Virus record (IMG/VR): IMGVR_UViG_3300043419_000648
Span: 1-38,781 of that record
DNA length: 38,781 bases
Source: a virus
Reading direction: 5' to 3' (one strand)
Within the stretch, counting starts at the first letter, position 1; each line of letters begins with the position of its first letter. Shown piece after piece: positions 5,478 through 38,724 of this stretch. The notes below the pieces were generated by a model. That model ran no database searches. It had not been told where the DNA came from and saw only the letters and a list, made by a program, of their open reading frames with translations. The position numbers and the translations under genes are program-made.

Positions 5478-5680
5478 GCGAGAACAAGAATATGGGCGCA
5501 GCCAGTGGCGAGGTGTACTGGCGCGATCCAGACGAACAGATTCCGCCTCGTGGGTCTAAGCTTTTGATTCTGACCAGCGGCGGTGTTGCGGTGATCGGGG
5601 ACTGGATCGATGACTCTAATTTCGTCGCATGGTCACCGCTGCCCAAGAAGCCAAGGAGAAATGATGGCAACCTGCGCTGA
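5474..5680 (+). CDS. Small beta-rich hypothetical protein (68 aa)
   Basis: A GTG start at 5474 overlaps the stop of the preceding gene. The product resembles the DUF551-like class of small phage proteins: a tryptophan early on (VYWRDPDEQIPPRG), then KLLILTSGGVAVIGDW, and a final FVAWSPLPKKP. That order of strands (W, P-rich turn, hydrophobic strand, G-x-W, W-x-PLP) is typical of the group, but no function is established. It overlaps the start of the winged-helix gene. Confidence 0.65.
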   Translation: MSENKNMGAASGEVYWRDPDEQIPPRGSKLLILTSGGVAVIGDWIDDSNFVAWSPLPKKPRRNDGNLR

Positions 5681-6206
5681 GAGAATCCTTCGGCATCTGG
5701 CCCAAGGCAAGCATATGAACATCGAAGAACTGAAGCGAGTCACCGCGCACGGTGCACTGAGCGTCAAGGCTGCACTGCGCGAGCTTCATGCAAAGAAGAT
5801 GGTCCGCGTCGTCAGCCCGCAAAAAGGCTACGACAGCAACACACGCCGATGGGCCATCGTTGCTGGTGTGACCGTGCAAAAGCCTGCACCTGCGCCTAAG
5901 CCTGCGAAGTTATCTGGGCGACAGCTTGTTCTGGATACGCTCAAAAGAGGGCCAAAGACCCGCGCTCAGATCTCGCTTGCAACCGCACTTGGAAAGACAA
6001 CCGTAATTGACTGCATCTCCAAGTTAAGTGCGGATCGGTTGGTTCGGATCTGCTCTTATATTCCGCGCTCTCGCGGCGCTGCGATGCCGCTCTACGATCT
6101 GTCGGACGGCAGACCCGACGCAGTCATTGTCGAGACCGCGCCTTTGACGATTATCCGAAAGACCGTCGTCATCCCCCGGCGCGACCCTGCTGCGGCATGG
6201 TTTTGA
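5664..6206 (+). CDS. Tandem winged-helix DNA-binding protein
   Basis: The ATG at 5664 is preferred to the adjacent ATG at 5661 because it lies a normal distance from AAGGAGAA. The 180-residue product appears to contain two winged-helix domains. The first spans about residues 1-65 (RILRHLAQGKHMNIEELKRV, then SVKAALRELHAKKMVRVV). The second spans about 80-150 (QLVLDTLKRGPKTRAQISLA, then TTVIDCISKLSADRLVRI). A proline-lysine linker (KPAPAPKPAK) joins them. The tandem layout fits a transcription regulator or a DNA-bridging protein. It is the only clear regulator candidate in the early operon. Confidence 0.7.
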   Translation: MATCAERILRHLAQGKHMNIEELKRVTAHGALSVKAALRELHAKKMVRVVSPQKGYDSNTRRWAIVAGVTVQKPAPAPKPAKLSGRQLVLDTLKRGPKTRAQISLATALGKTTVIDCISKLSADRLVRICSYIPRSRGAAMPLYDLSDGRPDAVIVETAPLTIIRKTVVIPRRDPAAAWF

Positions 6207-30418: not shown

Positions 30419-31950
30419 TACGCACCTAGCCAAGAAGTAGTCTGAAACTGACGGTTTTGAGTCACAGTCCGCCGTTGTGCCCGCTCATTGTACTCCCGAT
30501 GGGCCACAGGGAACGCAAAAGTGACCGCAATCGCGTCTGCAGCGTCCGGTGAGGCCAATCCACGGGCTTTCATCTCTTTTTTGCCTTCAAGAAAGATCGT
30601 TCCCGCCGAGTTGGGCTTGATTGTCGGCCCTGTCAGGTCGGCCTTGAGCGCCCGGTCGTTCGGAATCGACGCCGTTCGCAGCCAATCCTTCATCGTGCCC
30701 CACAATTCAGCCCGTTTGTTGCCGTACATGATTGGATTCTTGGCCTTCCAGCCAAAGTTAACCCCTCGGACGACCTTATAGCGCTGCTCGTGCAGCCGGT
30801 CAAGGATTCCGTAGCCCAGACCGCCCTCGTCCAGCACCACCAGCGTCGGCTTGTACTCCTCAATCGCGTCGATCACCCGCCCGACGACGGTCATCGTGTC
30901 CTCGCCGTGGTACCGATGCAGCGCGATAAGGTCACGCCCTTGCCTGACCGCGATGACCGTGCTGTCCGCACCGCCTCGTGCCGGGTCTACGCCGATAACA
31001 ATCGGCGCGGTGATGTCCTTGTACCGGGGCCGAGCGGCTGCGTCGGCCACAATCGCCGGGCTGATGAACTGATCATCCCCCGCTGCCGGGAACTCACCGT
31101 ACACCTCGACGCGAGCCTGGCTAGAATCCTCGCCGTACTCCGCGATGATCTGCTCGTAGACCTGCTTGTCAGTGTCCTCGACCGTGCGGGCGTCCACCTG
31201 GCGCGTTGTCCAGAAGTCCCGCTTGGCGTGAAAGCACTCAAAGAAGTACCCCGTATTGCGCCGTGGGTTGCTGAACGCGAACCAGTACCTATCAAGGATG
31301 TTTTCTGTGAAGAAGCCCGCGCCCACTGACCAGATGCCGTCCGGGATACCGCTGGCCTCGTCGAACACCAGCATCATGCCGTCCATATTATGGACACCAG
31401 CGTAGGCGTCTGGGTTCTCCTCAGACCACAGCTTTCCTTCAGCGCCCCAGTAGCGCGTGCCCTTCTTAAGATCGCGCTCGACCAGATCCGTCAGCCACTT
31501 GGCAGGCGTCAGCTTCGTTGCGCTGATCTCCCACCAGTGAGCGTTCAGCACCATCGTCGCCCACTTGGTCAACTCACCCCAGGTGACCGACCGCAACTGC
31601 GCCTCTGAGTTGGCGCTGACGATCACACTAGACCCAATCCGGGTAGTCAGCATCCACAGGATCAGCCAACTCACCAGCGCCGACTTACCAATGCCACGCC
31701 CTGATGACACTGCCTCTCGCAGCGTGTCCATCGAGACCTGGCCTTTGTTCTTGTCAATATGCGCCTTGATGTCGCGCAATACCTGACGCTGCCACATGCG
31801 CGGGCCTTTGTGATGCGCCAGTGGCGTGTTGGCCTGGCCCCACGGAAACGCAAAAAGAACAAACGCTTCTGGGTCGTCCTTGATCTTCGCAGACCAAAGA
31901 CGCGCCATCAGCGTCTGTTCGTCATCGGGGCTGTAGATCGGCTTTTGCAT
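30418..31950 (-). CDS. Terminase large subunit
   Basis: This 510-residue protein has Walker A GRGIGKS at 84-90 and Walker B MMLVFDE at 192-198. The RNase H-like nuclease has D322 in VIGVDPARGG, D374 in VVLDEGGLGYG, and a late acidic SPDAADAIAV. This is the motor that packs DNA into the head and cuts it. The short N-terminal part (FPWGQANTPLAHHKGPRMWQ) is a typical opening of one P22/GTA-like branch. It overlaps the small subunit gene by 29 bases. Confidence 0.95.
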   Translation of the reverse strand: MQKPIYSPDDEQTLMARLWSAKIKDDPEAFVLFAFPWGQANTPLAHHKGPRMWQRQVLRDIKAHIDKNKGQVSMDTLREAVSSGRGIGKSALVSWLILWMLTTRIGSSVIVSANSEAQLRSVTWGELTKWATMVLNAHWWEISATKLTPAKWLTDLVERDLKKGTRYWGAEGKLWSEENPDAYAGVHNMDGMMLVFDEASGIPDGIWSVGAGFFTENILDRYWFAFSNPRRNTGYFFECFHAKRDFWTTRQVDARTVEDTDKQVYEQIIAEYGEDSSQARVEVYGEFPAAGDDQFISPAIVADAAARPRYKDITAPIVIGVDPARGGADSTVIAVRQGRDLIALHRYHGEDTMTVVGRVIDAIEEYKPTLVVLDEGGLGYGILDRLHEQRYKVVRGVNFGWKAKNPIMYGNKRAELWGTMKDWLRTASIPNDRALKADLTGPTIKPNSAGTIFLEGKKEMKARGLASPDAADAIAVTFAFPVAHREYNERAQRRTVTQNRQFQTTSWLGA

Positions 31951-32365
31951 GTTGTACTGGCTCCAACACTTCCGTTATCGCGCCCTCAATGACGCGCCCC
32001 TCGGCAGCTTGAAGCGCGCCCAAGATGCTGATGCGCTGCTCAACCTCGACCGAGATCGCCTGCTTGGCGACCCAGCCGTGGCTGTGCTTCAAGATCTCCA
32101 GCGCCGCCTTGGAGTCGCCCCCCGCCGCTGCTGCGTGCAACGCCTGACTGTTGGCGCGCTCACTGTCAGCGCGGCCCTTGAGTTCGGCAATATGGGCGAT
32201 TTGGTCAAGCTCTTTAAGTCGGTTGAACTCCGTCGGCAGCATTCCGGCTGCTAACGCCAGCGAGTCACCCTTCAGACCAAGATACGCCGCTTCGTAAATG
32301 CGCTCCAACGTCGCTTCCGTCGCTTTGATCTGTCTGACTGTCAAAGGAAGGCTTTTGAATGTCAT
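31922..32365 (-). CDS. Terminase small subunit
   Basis: The protein has 147 residues. About residues 18-50 (LERIYEAAYLGLKGDSLALA, then AAGMLPTEFNRL) are a helix-turn-helix for DNA binding. About 60-100 is an oligomerisation helix (KGRADSERANSQALHAAAAG), and about 95-125 has HGWVAKQAISVEVEQRISIL, common to this family. It recognises the packaging site and loads the large subunit. It is the first gene of the late operon. No good ribosome site precedes its ATG at 32365. Confidence 0.85.
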   Translation of the reverse strand: MTFKSLPLTVRQIKATEATLERIYEAAYLGLKGDSLALAAGMLPTEFNRLKELDQIAHIAELKGRADSERANSQALHAAAAGGDSKAALEILKHSHGWVAKQAISVEVEQRISILGALQAAEGRVIEGAITEVLEPVQHAKADLQPR

Positions 32366-32495
32366 GCGCGAAGTTTAACTAAAAAAGGTATGCCTAGATA
32401 GCCCATGCAATGAAGTTGTGTGCAATAAAAAAAAATTCTTGTGGCCCCACCGCTAACGTTTGGCCGGTCGGCTCGGCCCTCCCCCCCCACCCTCA

Positions 32496-32519
32496 ATGTT
32501 AGTAAGCGCTTGCTAACAT
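32496..32519. promoter_or_regulatory. 24-bp near-perfect palindrome centred on AAGCGCTT (operator-like)
   Basis: The sequence reads ATGTTAGTAAGCGCTT with GCTAACAT closing it. Only one symmetric pair fails, 22 of 24 bases being symmetric. The centre AAGCGCTT is the type bound by LacI/GalR-family regulators, which many bacteria own. A half site (GCTAACGTT) lies at 32452-32460. No such regulator gene is present in the window, so a host or phage dimeric regulator could bind here. This is inference from symmetry. Confidence 0.55.
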
Positions 32520-32541: not shown

Positions 32542-32577
32542 CGACCGAGCCGACCGAGCCGACCGAGCCGACCGAGC
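32542..32577. repeat. Four exact 9-bp tandem repeats (CGACCGAGC)
   Basis: The 9-base unit CGACCGAGC occurs four times without interruption. The 11-base reverse complement of one frame of it (GGTCGGCTCGG) occurs once at 32466-32476, 66 bases away, so a long hairpin enclosing the palindrome at 32496-32519 can form. Such short tandem units are seen at phage origins and at sites bound by multimeric initiators. Confidence 0.8.
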
Positions 32578-32586
32578 CGAACAACC

Positions 32587-32735
32587 GGGGCGCTTTAGGC
32601 TATCGGCAGGGCATGACCTAAAGCGCCTAAGGCAGATGGGCGATTTAGGCTATCGGGCAGGGAATGACCCAGAACGCCTAAGGAAAATGGGCGATTTAGG
32701 CTATAGCATGAGGCATGACCTAAAACGCCCAAAAG
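32587..32735. repeat. Three imperfect 50-51 bp repeats, each an inverted-repeat hairpin
   Basis: Units begin at 32587, 32637 and 32688. Each has a left arm (G/T)GGGCGxTTTAGG, a 17-18 base centre starting CTAT and ending ATGA, and a right arm CCtAaAxCGCC(T/C)AA. The arms of unit 1 pair perfectly over 11 bases; those of unit 3 pair with one mismatch, and unit 2 is more decayed. Further single arms occur at 32765-32777, 32775-32787, 32872-32885 and 32929-32942. The array looks like paired iterons. Confidence 0.85.
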
Positions 32736-32974
32736 CATGCGCCCGACGGCGCCGCGGGCGATCTTGGGCGATATAGGCGGTTTGGGCACCCCTATTTCAG
32801 TCGGCGCGGCTCCACGCCCATACATACATTATGTCAAATCACTACTTGACCGAAAAAACTACAAAGCATTACCTAAACCGCCCAAAATCCCCGCCGTGCC
32901 GCGCCACTACTGGGGATCGCGCCGTGTTGCAGAACCGCCCAAGACCACGCCTTCCGCTTTACCTAAGAAAACGC

Positions 32975-33004
32975 TTGACAGCCTGCAAGCAAATCCTTTA
33001 CAGT
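32975..33004 (+). promoter_or_regulatory. Sigma-70-type promoter for the plus-strand cassette
   Basis: A perfect TTGACA at 32975-32980 is followed after 18 bases by TACAGT (4 of 6) at 32999-33004. Transcription would start near 33011, with AGGAG at 33040-33044 and the first ATG at 33054. It should drive the genes up to the clamp at 34463. Confidence 0.55.
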
Positions 33005-33779: not shown

Positions 33780-33841
33780 TCCTCGCAATCCTCGCTAGCG
33801 CGATAGTCGCGCTGATCCTATCCATCATTGATCGGAGATAA
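33776..33841 (+). CDS. Tiny hydrophobic peptide (21 aa)
   Basis: The ATG at 33776 overlaps the stop of the previous gene (ATGA) and the frame ends with TAA at 33839-33841, five bases before the clamp ATG. The peptide is one hydrophobic helix (ILAILASAIVALILSII) with a basic end (DRR). The last codons contain GGAG, which also serves as the ribosome site of the clamp gene. It may be a true micro-protein or a coupling device. Confidence 0.45.
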   Translation: MILAILASAIVALILSIIDRR

Positions 33842-33845
33842 GAAA

Positions 33846-34463
33846 ATGACCGTTATCGTCCCTGCTCGCGTTATCCCTGCCCTGTCCATCTTTTGCGCGA
33901 AGAAGGACGTGCGCTACTACCTGACCGGTATGCTTTTGGACATCGGCCCAACGGGCGCATATCTTGTTGCCACATGTGGCCACATTATCGCAGTAGCCAA
34001 AATCGACTCTACTGCCCGTGAATCCGCGCAATTCATCATTCCGCAGGAAACCCTCTCGATTCTCTCGAAAGACAAAAAATCTGATATGGCAATCGACTGC
34101 GCCAGTCTGACCGGCTCATATGATGGCCAGAATCGCAGGCAACTCCAGATCCGCACGGGCGCAGGCGCGTTTATTGCCACTGAAGTAGATGGACAATTCC
34201 CCGATTGGCGCAGGGTCGCCCGTAAAGGCGACGATGATGGAAAACATATTTCCTATAACCCGCACTATCTGGCCCGTATTGATGAAGGCGCACAGATCAT
34301 AAGGGGTGGCACCAAAGGGCGCAGTGATCCGGTGGTAGTTCGTCCTGGCGGCACTGGCTGCGGATATGCGTCCCTTGATCGCGAGGGCAATATCGGCGCA
34401 TGGGTCATGCCGACCCGCACCAAGGTAGAGGATCTGCCCGCCTGCCCGAGCTGGACAATCTGA
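33846..34463 (+). CDS. DnaN-like sliding clamp, shortened
   Basis: The ATG at 33846 has GGAG nine bases upstream. The 205-residue product matches the central and part of the third domain of bacterial beta clamps. It has DVRYYLTGMLLDIG (compare DVRYYLNGMLFE in E. coli), VATCGHIIAVAK (compare VATDGHRLAV) and TEVDGQFPDWRRVARK (compare VDGRFPDYRRVLP). The first domain of about 120 residues is missing. A PCNA-like trimer of two-domain subunits is one possibility. It would act with the phage polymerase. This is a phage replication protein near the candidate origin. Confidence 0.78.
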   Translation: MTVIVPARVIPALSIFCAKKDVRYYLTGMLLDIGPTGAYLVATCGHIIAVAKIDSTARESAQFIIPQETLSILSKDKKSDMAIDCASLTGSYDGQNRRQLQIRTGAGAFIATEVDGQFPDWRRVARKGDDDGKHISYNPHYLARIDEGAQIIRGGTKGRSDPVVVRPGGTGCGYASLDREGNIGAWVMPTRTKVEDLPACPSWTI

Positions 34464-34482
34464 CCCTCACCCGCAGCAAAGC

Positions 34483-34506
34483 AAAAGGGGCCAATTGGCC
34501 CCTTTT
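34483..34506. terminator. Bidirectional intrinsic terminator
   Basis: A perfect 24-bp palindrome runs from AAAAGGGGCC through AATT to GGCCCCTTTT, with runs of T on both strands. It lies between the convergent clamp gene (stop 34463) and the primase-helicase gene (stop 34508-34510). It should stop both transcripts. Confidence 0.9.
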
Positions 34507-34507
34507 T

Positions 34508-36799
34508 CTATTTCACTACCGCCATTCTAGATGGCGCTGGCGGATCCTCTAGCATCCTACGCAAGTCCGACTTATTGTACTGGCGCAGGACAGACGGATC
34601 GGCGAATAGGTGTTTCTTCGTTGGATACTCTGCCGATCCGACCCGGCCTAAATCCGTCCATCCGGCCTCCTTTAAGGCATGCAGCAAAGCCGCTTGAGGT
34701 ACTTTGACACCCGACGGCGCTTGGCCCGCCAAACGGTCGCAGACAGCGTAGAACGGGCCTCCAATGAACCCGCGCGCAAACTCACCGGATCGGTTCCGGA
34801 TCAGATTCACCAGATACGACTCAGCCATCGACATGCCATTCTCGATCATGGCTTCTTTCCACGCCGTCCATGCGGGTGCTGCGCCAGGGTTGAAGGCCGA
34901 TACATCCCGCGCATGCAGCCATGAGGCCACTGCATCAAACCCGCCCGACCGGTACCACCTCCAGAGCCTATCGGCCGCGTCTGGTGCCATCCTGGGCGCA
35001 TGTGACCACAGGCAGAACCATCGACGGTCGGTCGAGTCTAGGCTGATCGGAACCGAGTCATTTGAAAATGCCAAGACCAGACCCCGATTGACCATCTGGT
35101 ACGGGTGTAGTCCCTTTCTGTTAATCGGAATCGTCTCAGGCGGAGCCGCGATAATCGGTTTCAGCTTGTTCGCCAGTGCTCGGCGCTCACGGGCCTCAGG
35201 CTCACGCAGTTCATTCAGGATGATGACCTCAGCTTCAAGGGCGTATCCGAACTGCGATTCCATCGATTGATTGTCCAGTAGGCCACGGTTGACCAGTCCT
35301 GGCCCACACACGGCGTACAGGAACGGAGCCCAGAGGGAGTCTTTCCCGCAGCCCTGGTCGCCCCCGTGCAGCACGGCGTGATTGATCTTCACCTCGGGGT
35401 GCTGGACTTTGTACGCCATGACGTTAAAAACGTGCTCACGCTCAGACGCCTCGGGGATCAGATCGGCGCAGTGTTTGAGCCACAGATCCACATTCCCGCC
35501 CCCGGACACCTTGGGTCGGCCATCGCGCCATCGGTTGCCGAACACCTCGCCATTCCGGGCGACCAGCACGGACTCGCCCGGTGCATAGGTGATCCCGGTC
35601 AGGACACGCGACCCCATGGCTTGACGGTTCTCATCGAAGCATATCGACGCCTCGACCCGACGTTGATTGTGAATCGAGGTGCAGGAAACGTGCCGGTACA
35701 GGGCATTGAACGCCCCCCGGCGCAACTCGGTGCGGTTCACTATGTCGAAGTAGGAATCGTCATCGATCACATATGCGAATCGTTCCCACCACTGCGCCTT
35801 ATCGAGCCGACCTAGTTCTTTGGTGTTAACCTCATCGATCACCTTCTGAGCGTCATCAGAAAAGAAATCAGACGGCGCGAGCCGCTGGAGCGCCTCGCTC
35901 ATCGTGGACGCGATCAGGTCATCACGCAGACCGGCCTGGTGGACAGGCCCACCCTGGTCAGCTACCCATTTCAGGAACCATGCCGAATCCAGATCCACGC
36001 AGTGCGAATGCAGGCAGCAAAACGCCCGTGAGGCGGGCAGGTAACGACCCTCGGGGTTGCCGTCGGTATGCTCGCCGGCATTGGGGCAGATGATCCCGGC
36101 CCAGCCCTCTGGGTTAGGCTTGGACAGGACTAGCCCCTGATCGGCCAGCCATGCAAAGACGTCATCCGACCCGGTATCGGTCAGCCGGATCGGTTTATAC
36201 GCTGCGCCATCGGACTCGGCTGGCGTCACCCCTAGCGCGGCGCAGATGTCCTCAAGGGCGAACTCACGGGTCGGCTCGAACTCAACCAGTCGAGCTTGAA
36301 ACCCATCCTTGTCGGGCTTCAGATTGACCGAGCCGGGCAAGCGGAAGTTACGGACAGGGTTGCACGCGCCACGGTCGGTATAGCCCGCCTCAGCAATCGC
36401 AATGATGGCAGCGGCGAAGTCGGCCTTGGTCGGCTGATCGGAAAAGGCATAGCCCCACTGGAAGTTACCCGGCGAGGTTTCCATCTTCCAGGTCGGCTCA
36501 AGGGGCGGCTCCTTGGACTTCGTGCCGATATCGTCCAACACCATGACGATGCAGTACTCACAGTTCGCAGCGCTAGCGCTGACCTGCCCCTGATCGAACC
36601 GATCAACGATGAACGACGCAGTGTTGCCGTACCAAGCCTGATCGGGCTTGATGCGTGCGGGGTCAGGCAGGAACGCCGGCCAGGTGCACTTCAGCGCCCC
36701 GTCGGCGTGATAGCTGCGGGGGTTCTTGGGTTTCTGCCGCACGATGAGCGGCGTCTCGCCCTGCGGGGCGAGGCTAATCAGCCAGTCAAGGAAAATCAT
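34508..36799 (-). CDS. Primase-helicase: RepB/PrimPol-like N-terminus fused to SF3 (VapE/D5-like) helicase
   Basis: The product has 763 residues. The N-terminal 200 residues carry archaeo-eukaryotic primase signs: VMVLDDIG (D89, D90), WKMETSPGNFQWGY near 104-117, and NPVRNFRLPGSVNLKPD near 147-163. A zinc knuckle follows (C238, H244, C262, H266). The helicase part has Walker A GGDQGCGKD at 479-487, then VIILNELREPEAR as Walker B, then LAFSNDSVPISLDSTDRRW as the SF3 sensor. It would make primers and unwind DNA at the phage origin. It overlaps the polymerase gene by four bases. Confidence 0.87.
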   Translation of the reverse strand: MIFLDWLISLAPQGETPLIVRQKPKNPRSYHADGALKCTWPAFLPDPARIKPDQAWYGNTASFIVDRFDQGQVSASAANCEYCIVMVLDDIGTKSKEPPLEPTWKMETSPGNFQWGYAFSDQPTKADFAAAIIAIAEAGYTDRGACNPVRNFRLPGSVNLKPDKDGFQARLVEFEPTREFALEDICAALGVTPAESDGAAYKPIRLTDTGSDDVFAWLADQGLVLSKPNPEGWAGIICPNAGEHTDGNPEGRYLPASRAFCCLHSHCVDLDSAWFLKWVADQGGPVHQAGLRDDLIASTMSEALQRLAPSDFFSDDAQKVIDEVNTKELGRLDKAQWWERFAYVIDDDSYFDIVNRTELRRGAFNALYRHVSCTSIHNQRRVEASICFDENRQAMGSRVLTGITYAPGESVLVARNGEVFGNRWRDGRPKVSGGGNVDLWLKHCADLIPEASEREHVFNVMAYKVQHPEVKINHAVLHGGDQGCGKDSLWAPFLYAVCGPGLVNRGLLDNQSMESQFGYALEAEVIILNELREPEARERRALANKLKPIIAAPPETIPINRKGLHPYQMVNRGLVLAFSNDSVPISLDSTDRRWFCLWSHAPRMAPDAADRLWRWYRSGGFDAVASWLHARDVSAFNPGAAPAWTAWKEAMIENGMSMAESYLVNLIRNRSGEFARGFIGGPFYAVCDRLAGQAPSGVKVPQAALLHALKEAGWTDLGRVGSAEYPTKKHLFADPSVLRQYNKSDLRRMLEDPPAPSRMAVVK

Positions 36800-38724
36800 T
36801 TTCCGTAACGCTCCATCACGTTAATTTCAGCGTCCAAGGGCAACCCTTGCGCCCACTCGGGCGGGGTGCGCATCACTTCCTGCAGTCGGGTCATCTCGGC
36901 CTCTGCATCGGCATCGGGCACTTCCAGCACCACCTCGTCATGCACATGCAGGACAGCGCTCACCTGGCGCAGCGTCGCCCGTAGGACATCATTGGCCGCT
37001 GCTTGGCAGATGTTCTCGCAGGCCAGCCCCTTCCACAGCCGCGCCCGGGGCCACTCCTTCGCATCAGCAGCAGGCTTCCATGACGCCTTGGCATAGGTCA
37101 CGCCTTCAGTCTCCAGTCGGGCATAGGGGTAGCAGAGGATACGCCCACTGGGCAGGCCATACCAGAGGTGCTGGCCGTCAAAGTAGTACGTCACCCGACC
37201 GGCGTGGAACTCATGCCCTTTGTTCCGCATGGCGCGGGTGTAGGCCGACTCCAGATCCTGCCAGTAGCGCACGGCCCACGGGTTGGCCCGGCGCCAGGCG
37301 TCCACCATCCGGCGCGAGTCGGCCTCGGGCAGATGCACGCCATAAACGCGGCCCATCGCAGCGAACGCGCGAATGCCACCGCCATACCCGCAGGCGAGTT
37401 CCTGCACCTTGCCGATCTGGCGCTGATCCTTGGTGATCTGATCGACCGACACATGGAAGGTGGCAGACGCATTGTGCTTATAAACGTCCGAGCCGGTGCG
37501 AAACAGATCCAGCTTGGACTCGCTGGTCGGCTCGGCCGACAGCCACGGGTTCATCCGCGCCTCGATCGCCGACCAGTCTGCTACGATCAGCACATGCCCC
37601 GGCGCAGGCACAAGCGCAGGGCGAAGCATTCCCTTCAGCACATCGGTGACCCGGCGACCGAACTCGGGCACGATCTTGTGACCGCGCACCATGGCGTGCC
37701 GCACGGCATTAGGAGCCTTGGCAGTCGCACGGGCGAAGTTATGCACCTGAGCGCCGTAGGACGACGCCCTGCCCGTCGCGCTGCCGCCAGCGAACACAAA
37801 CGCGCCCCTGACGCGGCGATCTTCTTCATCGGCCAGATCAGCCAGACGCTTGAACTTGGCAACGCTAGAGGCCCACAGGTCATCGGCGCACTGGATCACC
37901 TCGGCCACATCGGGCGGCACTTGGTCAGGGTTTAGGGTCAGCAGGTTGGCCCGCACGGTCTTGTCTATGGACACCCGGTCATCGACCTGCATCAGCTTGC
38001 GGGCCTCCTCGCCCACGCGCTGCCAAACCCACTCGCGCATCCTGGGCGACCGCACGCTGGTGATCTCGCCCTGCGTCACCTCGGCAACAATGGCCTCGAT
38101 CTCGACCAGTTCATCGGCGGCGTACTTGATCGCAGCACGGCACAGGTCAACATCGACCAGCACGCCACGGTCGTTGATCCGTTCGTTCACATGGTAGTCA
38201 GCCAGTTCCTCGTCCGACAGATCGCGCATGGCGTTGCTGACCGCCCGCATGGCCCTGACGTCCTGCTCGCAGTACCGGATAAGTTCGGCCATCAGGTCGG
38301 AGTCTTGCCGGAACGATGCGTCGGCCTGCGGGATGCACAGCAGACGGATCAGTTGCGCCCCACGGTGATCCTTCTTCATGGACGCGCTGGCGAACCGGCC
38401 TACATCCTCAAGCGAGCCAGGCGCACAGTTCGCCCGTGCCTGCGCGGCGGTGCAGTAGAACTGCTCCAGTTTGAAATCAATCTGCAGGACGTACCAAAAA
38501 ATCAAACGCTCAAACGCCGCGTTGTGCGCCCTGATCTGTCCCTCATACTTCCGCACCCGCTCGGGGAACGGCTGGTCAGGCGTCCATGTCTGGACGGGTT
38601 CGTCGTCGAAGGCGTAGGACATGCACAGGACTTCTGTAGTCGCATCCTGCGCGTAGTTGTACACGCCGCGTGTCGTCAGGTCGCAACGACTGCGGCTTTC
38701 CATGTCAATCCATAAAATAGTCAT
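36796..38724 (-). CDS. Family A DNA polymerase with 3'-5' exonuclease domain
   Basis: The ATG at 38724 has CGGAGGCA upstream. The 642-residue protein has an N-terminal exonuclease (LWIDMESRSRCDL with D7 and E9, then AHNAAFERLIF), but no 5'-3' exonuclease domain. The polymerase motifs are A (VADWSAIEARM), B (KDQRQIGKVQELACGYGG) and C (HVHDEVVLEVP, about 593-603). This short PolA form is common in phages with an SF3 primase-helicase. It copies the phage genome. The HNH gene that ends at 38705 overlaps its start. Confidence 0.95.
   Translation of the reverse strand: MTILWIDMESRSRCDLTTRGVYNYAQDATTEVLCMSYAFDDEPVQTWTPDQPFPERVRKYEGQIRAHNAAFERLIFWYVLQIDFKLEQFYCTAAQARANCAPGSLEDVGRFASASMKKDHRGAQLIRLLCIPQADASFRQDSDLMAELIRYCEQDVRAMRAVSNAMRDLSDEELADYHVNERINDRGVLVDVDLCRAAIKYAADELVEIEAIVAEVTQGEITSVRSPRMREWVWQRVGEEARKLMQVDDRVSIDKTVRANLLTLNPDQVPPDVAEVIQCADDLWASSVAKFKRLADLADEEDRRVRGAFVFAGGSATGRASSYGAQVHNFARATAKAPNAVRHAMVRGHKIVPEFGRRVTDVLKGMLRPALVPAPGHVLIVADWSAIEARMNPWLSAEPTSESKLDLFRTGSDVYKHNASATFHVSVDQITKDQRQIGKVQELACGYGGGIRAFAAMGRVYGVHLPEADSRRMVDAWRRANPWAVRYWQDLESAYTRAMRNKGHEFHAGRVTYYFDGQHLWYGLPSGRILCYPYARLETEGVTYAKASWKPAADAKEWPRARLWKGLACENICQAAANDVLRATLRQVSAVLHVHDEVVLEVPDADAEAEMTRLQEVMRTPPEWAQGLPLDAEINVMERYGK

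Follow-up and report, generated by a model that had tools for sequence, protein, structure and literature searches.

A conserved repeat array upstream of the small terminase gene is a probable replication origin in uncultured podoviruses with NrS-1-type primase-helicases

The window, that is, the whole stretch of DNA analysed here, spans the 38,781 bp of a virus record in IMG/VR and has a non-coding array of short repeats in its right part. Leftward genes for the small terminase subunit (terS, 31922-32365, minus strand), the large terminase subunit (terL) and the portal lie on one side of the array, and those for a DNA polymerase (PolA, 36796-38724) and a 763-aa primase-polymerase-helicase of the DUF5906 (NrS-1) type, the proposed initiator (34508-36799, minus strand), lie on the other. 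A small rightward accessory operon encoding an ArdA-like protein and a DNA polymerase III beta-clamp-like protein (33828-34463, plus strand; PF02767) separates the array from the initiator gene, in agreement with the first-pass annotation, which had placed a clamp gene downstream of the array and a primase-helicase gene beyond it. The beta-clamp-like gene is accessory and is absent or unrecognised in many relatives, and the segment 33054-34463 (ArdA-like antirestriction and beta-clamp-like genes) varies between near-identical phages, making it an apparent gene-exchange hot spot. The clamp and primase genes converge on a 44-bp gap (34464-34507) that contains a symmetric GGGGCCAATTGGCCCC hairpin flanked by runs of A and T, probably a two-way terminator. 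Three further elements lie on the terS side of the array: (i) a long C/G tract with CGTTAGCGGTGGGGCCACAAGAA (terS strand) at 32435-32495, directly upstream of terS and kept in the closest relatives, a possible late promoter or packaging site; (ii) a near-perfect palindrome, ATGTTAGTAAGCGCTTGCTAACAT, at 32496-32519, a candidate operator or packaging element, where 19 of the 128 relatives also have palindromes of the GTTAGT...ACTAAC type in the region upstream of terS; and (iii) a VNTR-like, GC-rich tandem repeat of 9 bp, CGACCGAGC, at 32542-32586, in a region where repeat unit and copy number are highly variable among relatives with almost identical neighbouring genes.

The array itself is real. 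All five exact copies of GGGCGNTTTAGG in the window fall within 32588-32883, against a mean of 0.0 expected from first-order Markov simulations; allowing at most one mismatch, nine copies were observed against 0.6 expected from the same simulations, and sites with at most two mismatches reach a density of nine per 300 bp against a simulated maximum of three. The repeat array reported in the first-pass annotation is thus borne out, and the 12-14 base motif described there is present, but the true unit is longer: 9-bp half-units, TTGGGCGNT together with TTAGGTCAT or TTAGGCTAT, stand in tandem to form 18-bp sites, of which the window array holds eight, and its extent is better set at about 32586-32966. 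Three inverted pairs (32586-32732) are spaced in 50-51 bp steps, just as had been described. Pair 1 (32586-32630) consists of a plus site at 32586-32603 and a minus site at 32613-32630, with TTAGGCGCTTTAGGTCAT on the minus strand; pair 2 (32636-32681) of a plus site at 32636-32653 and a minus site at 32664-32681; and pair 3 (32687-32732) of a plus site at 32687-32704 and a minus site, a perfect TTGGGCGTTTTAGGTCAT, at 32715-32732. They are followed by a run of four 9-bp plus-strand units (32754-32762, 32764-32772, 32773-32781 and 32782-32790), which includes the 18-bp site 32764-32781 and is oriented throughout toward an AT-rich stretch at 32828-32877. This putative DNA unwinding element has a GC content of 30% against 58% for the window, placing it in the lowest 0.03% of window 50-mers, and confirms the earlier claim of an AT-rich stretch between motif copies. 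To its right, an 18-bp minus site at 32868-32885 (TTGGGCGGTTTAGGTAAT) faces back to it, as do two single minus-strand units, TTGGGCGGT at 32934-32942 and a weak one, TTAGGTAAA, at 32958-32966, the latter just upstream of a rightward sigma-70-like promoter (32975-33004).

Relatives were collected through a TerS search of viral contigs, which returned more than 500, the best 80 of which were fetched, and through further searches with the primase-helicase; loci of 10-22 kb each were compared. Direct queries for relatives in bacterial genomes returned none, and an alignment search found five contigs in metagenome-assembled genomes, where binning is no proof of host. The gene order common to the relatives is exo, ssb, polA, primase-helicase, accessory genes, array, terS, terL and portal, with 2-7 kb between array and initiator gene in most of them. 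A strong cluster of short repeats usually lies just upstream of terS, at a distance of 150-900 bp in most of 128 relatives. Using a motif finder that masks simple tandem repeats (its unmasked version was drawn to GC-rich tandem repeats beside terS), scores above 80 were obtained for 94 of the 128 regions, compared with one of 128 shuffled regions, none of 116 terL segments and none of 91 primase-gene segments. The motif depends on the lineage (TTTGGGTCAT, TGTGGACAAT, TGTTGGCTAT, TAGGTCAAATTGTC and others), and despite these differences the 9-bp units and their mixed orientation are kept across lineages. A frequent order is ++-++, then the AT-rich stretch, then ---++-----, and an AT-rich 50-mer is flanked by sites on both sides in 74% of the relatives. 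The gene flanking the array on its far side changes between near relatives, and the array stays. The automatic strand register was wrong for a few motifs (L124, L090, L105, L200 and L228).

Among distant relatives, a k-mer scan detected no comparable array beside terS in Vibrio phages 1.021.A and MZH0603 or in MW202898. In MW202483 (L161, 28221-28576), a homing endonuclease gene adjoins terS and an array with the motif TTTATGTAAACA lies past it; the wing region of the corresponding initiator is a distant variant, GMCFAPELSTKRH. In phage DSL-LC05 (L082, 33228-33750), both the repeats, TGACCCACTGGG, and the terS downstream of them are different; its TerL (75%), portal and capsid are related, but its primase and polymerase differ as well, and its replication module is another one. 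Because both primase type and motif differ, DSL-LC05 neither supports nor refutes the reading proposed below; its repeats suggest, on the other hand, that these podoviruses may use the site upstream of terS for control more generally.

The inverted pairs could alternatively act as RNA or single-stranded DNA hairpins, that is, as terminators, a non-coding RNA or a stem-loop origin of the kind proposed for pRN1/BIP-1. As single strands, pairs 1 and 3 do give good folds (z -3.3 and -4.6), but pair 2 folds poorly (z -1.6), relatives show same-strand runs such as ++-++---++----- instead of hairpins, and the motif co-varies with a predicted DNA-binding domain, all of which makes hairpins a most improbable explanation. 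The array also lacks any Rfam match, on which ground a non-coding RNA was rejected.

Because the small terminase gene is next to the array, a layout like that of lambda, the possibility considered first was a pac or cosB packaging site to which the small terminase subunit binds. The position of the array 150-900 bp upstream of terS fits such a site, as do the DSL-LC05 repeats, which also precede their own, different terS. Against this, near-identical TerS proteins accompany different motifs in three sets of phages (L092/L093/L096 vs L098, L052/L058 vs L066/L074, and L116 vs L126), and the N-terminal region of TerS is nearly invariant. In the first set, L092, L093 and L096 carry TTTGGGTCATT and L098 carries GTTGTCCACG; their TerS (120 aligned residues), TerL and SSB are near-identical, whereas their primase-helicases share 98-100% identity within the former three and 92-93% with L098, the differences being concentrated in the last ~120 residues. 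Different arrays with near-identical terminases argue against a packaging site, and TerS distance is uncorrelated with motif distance (partial correlation 0.08; 151 of 2000 permutations as high). Since site specificity follows TerS neither in these swaps nor in the statistics, the TerS-bound packaging site was rejected, and we regard it as very unlikely; terS is a conserved neighbour of the array without co-variation with it.

To identify which protein tracks the motif, six proteins (SSB, PolA, primase-helicase, TerS, TerL and portal) were compared with it in sliding 40-aa windows. Two windows covering primase-helicase residues 701-760 gave rho values of 0.44 and 0.42, and all others in the six proteins stayed at or below 0.26; among pairs with similar TerS, the same two windows reached 0.66 and 0.65, and the next highest 0.56. 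The correlation falls to 0.07 and 0.04 in the flanking primase-helicase windows 681-720 and 741-763. Mere linkage does not explain this peak, because residues 741-763, encoded nearer the array, drop and because TerS, adjacent on the other side of the array, is peakless. Across 59 non-redundant loci, residues 701-745, which include the wing of a predicted winged helix, gave a partial Mantel correlation of 0.50 with the motif given the rest of the protein, and none of 2000 permutations was as high, although relatedness among the phages lowers the effective sample size. Only this stretch clearly tracks the motif among those tested in SSB, PolA, the primase-helicase, the terminases and the portal. 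Of the three candidate binders named in the first-pass annotation, the primase-helicase is favoured, as motif divergence follows its C-terminal winged helix. The other two are not retained: the SSB-like protein has no clear correlation with the motif, and just one fetched relative has a recognisable counterpart of the tandem winged-helix protein (5610-6206). PolA, TerL and the portal were ruled out together with SSB for want of a comparable peak, and the small genes between array and primase were discarded because they change while the motif stays.

The favoured protein combines a RepB/AEP-like N-terminus, a DUF5906 helicase and a predicted C-terminal winged helix. DUF5906 (PF19263, E 1.5e-11) is present in all 47 aligned members, 6k9e is a sequence match in the PDB (E 1.8e-5), and RepB_primase is detected in 41 of the 47 members (best 6.6e-8), the window protein falling below the curated cut-off. 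In AlphaFold2 models, the C-terminus (codons 683-750; 34550-34753, minus strand) has helices 683-693 and 702-711 in helix-turn-helix order and a beta-hairpin, 715-720/729-733, which brackets residues 721-728 (GSAEYPTK; 34616-34639, minus strand) and thereby identifies them as the wing. The best structural matches of the full model are to the C-terminal region of NrS-1 polymerase (6k9c, 6k9e and 6lrb); other matches include poxvirus D5/E5 helicases, the AEP domain of S-2L PrimPol, RepB' and SaPI5 PriRep1. The C-terminal domain alone had no significant match in the PDB, the weak ones being mostly winged-helix regulatory proteins, and its fold assignment therefore rests on the predicted topology.

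Within this domain, the segment that changes with the motif reads GR[LVI]-721-S-723-[DE]-x-726-[TS]-KKH, and residues 721, 723 and 726 of the wing loop track the motif bases. The loop KSRE.D goes with TGTGGACAA, ASRE.G with TGTTGGCTAT, MSRDYP with TGTCGGTCAT, AS[GA][DE] with TTTGGGTCAT, ASHD with TAGGTCAAATTGTC, and GSAEYP, the loop of the window, with TTGGGCGNT. The adjusted R2 is 0.82 for residue 723 as predictor of motif column 3 and 0.62 for residue 726 as predictor of column 7. A first rule, fixed before new loci were examined, states that Arg723 occurs if and only if column 3 is G; of the 32 unique new arrays, 29 fitted it automatically (Fisher p 3e-6, without correction for relatedness). 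Two of the three misses contain TGTGG or TGTAG on the other strand and the third is L176; L097/L100 and possibly L176 are exceptions to the rule. A second rule, pairing Asp726 with A at column 7, fitted in 28 of 32. The first rule also holds in two contigs, L236 and L240, that come from bacterial genomes assembled from metagenomes. Under a strict automatic rule, eight of 13 independent sister contrasts agree; three more agree after correction of the register by hand, and two disagree.

The same dependence on a phage protein bears on whether the units could be DnaA boxes of an origin that relies on host DnaA. The DnaA box is TTATCCACA, from which TTGTCCACA, the commonest motif class and present in many relatives, differs by one base. 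The motifs of the window and of other lineages (TTGGGCGNT, TGTTGGCTAT and TAGGTCAAATTGTC) are unlike any DnaA box, however, and motif changes follow the phage protein; we therefore hold a DnaA-dependent origin to be hardly credible.

Taken together, the array is very probably a replication origin that the phage primase-helicase reads with its C-terminal winged helix and in which the AT-rich stretch would melt. The first-pass annotation had likewise seen iterons flanking an easily melted stretch, and the comparative data favour that view, with the primase-helicase as reader. Sequence comparison establishes the array, its conserved position, its AT-rich core, the co-variation of the wing and a predictive residue-base rule, and we strongly infer that the winged helix binds the sites directly. 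Several features are those of an iteron origin: the short repeats are clustered in one non-coding region, an AT-rich element lies between them, and both the co-variation and the out-of-sample rule match a domain of the initiator to the repeats. GC skew differs between terL and the primase gene as expected for an intervening origin (p 1e-14), but the portal gene contradicts this. In the proposed mechanism, the 9-bp units, in tandem as 18-bp sites, would be bound as double-stranded DNA by the winged helix, with wing loop 721-728 setting the base specificity. With the sites occupied, helicase assemblies would be loaded to the left and right of 32828-32877, the AT-rich stretch would melt, and replication would be initiated there, the primase-helicase itself priming synthesis and the phage PolA probably extending the primers.

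Co-variation reveals a binding relation and not its purpose, and it would be expected equally if the array were an operator or replication-control element, through which the primase-helicase or a factor sharing its wing regulated either copy number or the divergent promoters of the late (terS) and accessory genes. The array does lie between divergent transcription units, and a weak unit stands just upstream of the sigma-70-like promoter at 32975-33004. For an operator, however, a span of 300-700 bp with as many as 20 sites and an AT-rich core is large; the array also persists among near relatives that differ in the far-side flanking gene, and the co-varying protein is a primase-helicase. Together, these points leave a control element unlikely.

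It is conceivable, although we would not expect it on balance, that changes in the wing (721, 723 and 726) of a primase-helicase conserved in its other parts, together with changes in up to 20 scattered sites, have switched initiator-origin specificity many times across a large group of uncultured podoviruses, which would amount to a readable protein-DNA code for origin choice. Such diversification would make the replicons of co-infecting phages incompatible or, alternatively, let a phage evade satellites that exploit its replisome. The array bears on start-site choice by NrS-1-type primase-polymerase-helicases. With the origin-like array, its likely reading domain and base-predicting residues identified, a single small domain and synthetic DNA would be enough to test how the origin is recognised, how the helicase is loaded and how specificity switches, and the approach offers a means to find origins in uncultured phages by sequence alone.

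Comparison with known systems places the window protein nearest to NrS-1 polymerase in its helicase, since both share DUF5906 (47 of 47 members) and the best structural matches. In the portions of the NrS-1 literature consulted, the polymerase recognises TTTGGTTA, present in two genome copies, and also GTG, and no iteron array is reported for that phage (PMC7102993, PMC8718748). The window has two copies of TTTGGTTA, near the number expected by chance and both outside and far from the array, and initiation at this motif was rejected for the window. Initiators of the pRN1 ORF904/BIP-1 type resemble the window protein in uniting an archaeo-eukaryotic-type primase, a helicase and a C-terminal winged helix in one protein, and for them a large stem-loop origin directly downstream of the gene has been proposed rather than iterons (PMC4234260). 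Directly downstream of the window primase-helicase gene, no stem-loop of ~100 nt was found, the 44-bp gap holding only a 10-bp terminator-like hairpin; unlike that stem-loop, the co-varying element of the window is an iteron array. P4 alpha, which binds origin repeats with a winged helix, likewise has primase, helicase and winged helix in the same protein, as proposed for the window initiator (PMC4234260), but its primase is of the bacterial TOPRIM type, whereas the N-terminus of the window protein matches RepB_primase (AEP).

As in the window, the iterons of SaPI origins flank an AT-rich stretch. SaPI Rep and SCCmec Cch2 recognise their iterons via the C-terminal domain, and SaPI Rep, which in SaPI5 carries a fused primase, is an initiator helicase like the one proposed here (PMC7581432). 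SaPI5 PriRep1 is among the structural matches of the window protein, and recognition by the helicase C-terminal domain is mirrored in the co-variation peak at residues 701-745. The two systems differ in that the window helicase belongs to the NrS-1/DUF5906 branch, that the SaPI origin lies directly downstream of the initiator gene whereas the window array lies kilobases away, beyond other genes and beside terS, that the window-type arrays occur in whole phages whereas SaPIs are satellites, and that the window iterons are 9-bp units doubled to 18 bp with their specificity residues in the wing. The description of the locus as an undescribed system was therefore too strong, because reading of iterons or repeats by a C-terminal domain or winged helix is already known from SaPIs (PMC7581432) and P4 (PMC4234260). 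The proposed mode is that of the SaPI Rep/iteron and P4 alpha origins, in a different enzyme family.
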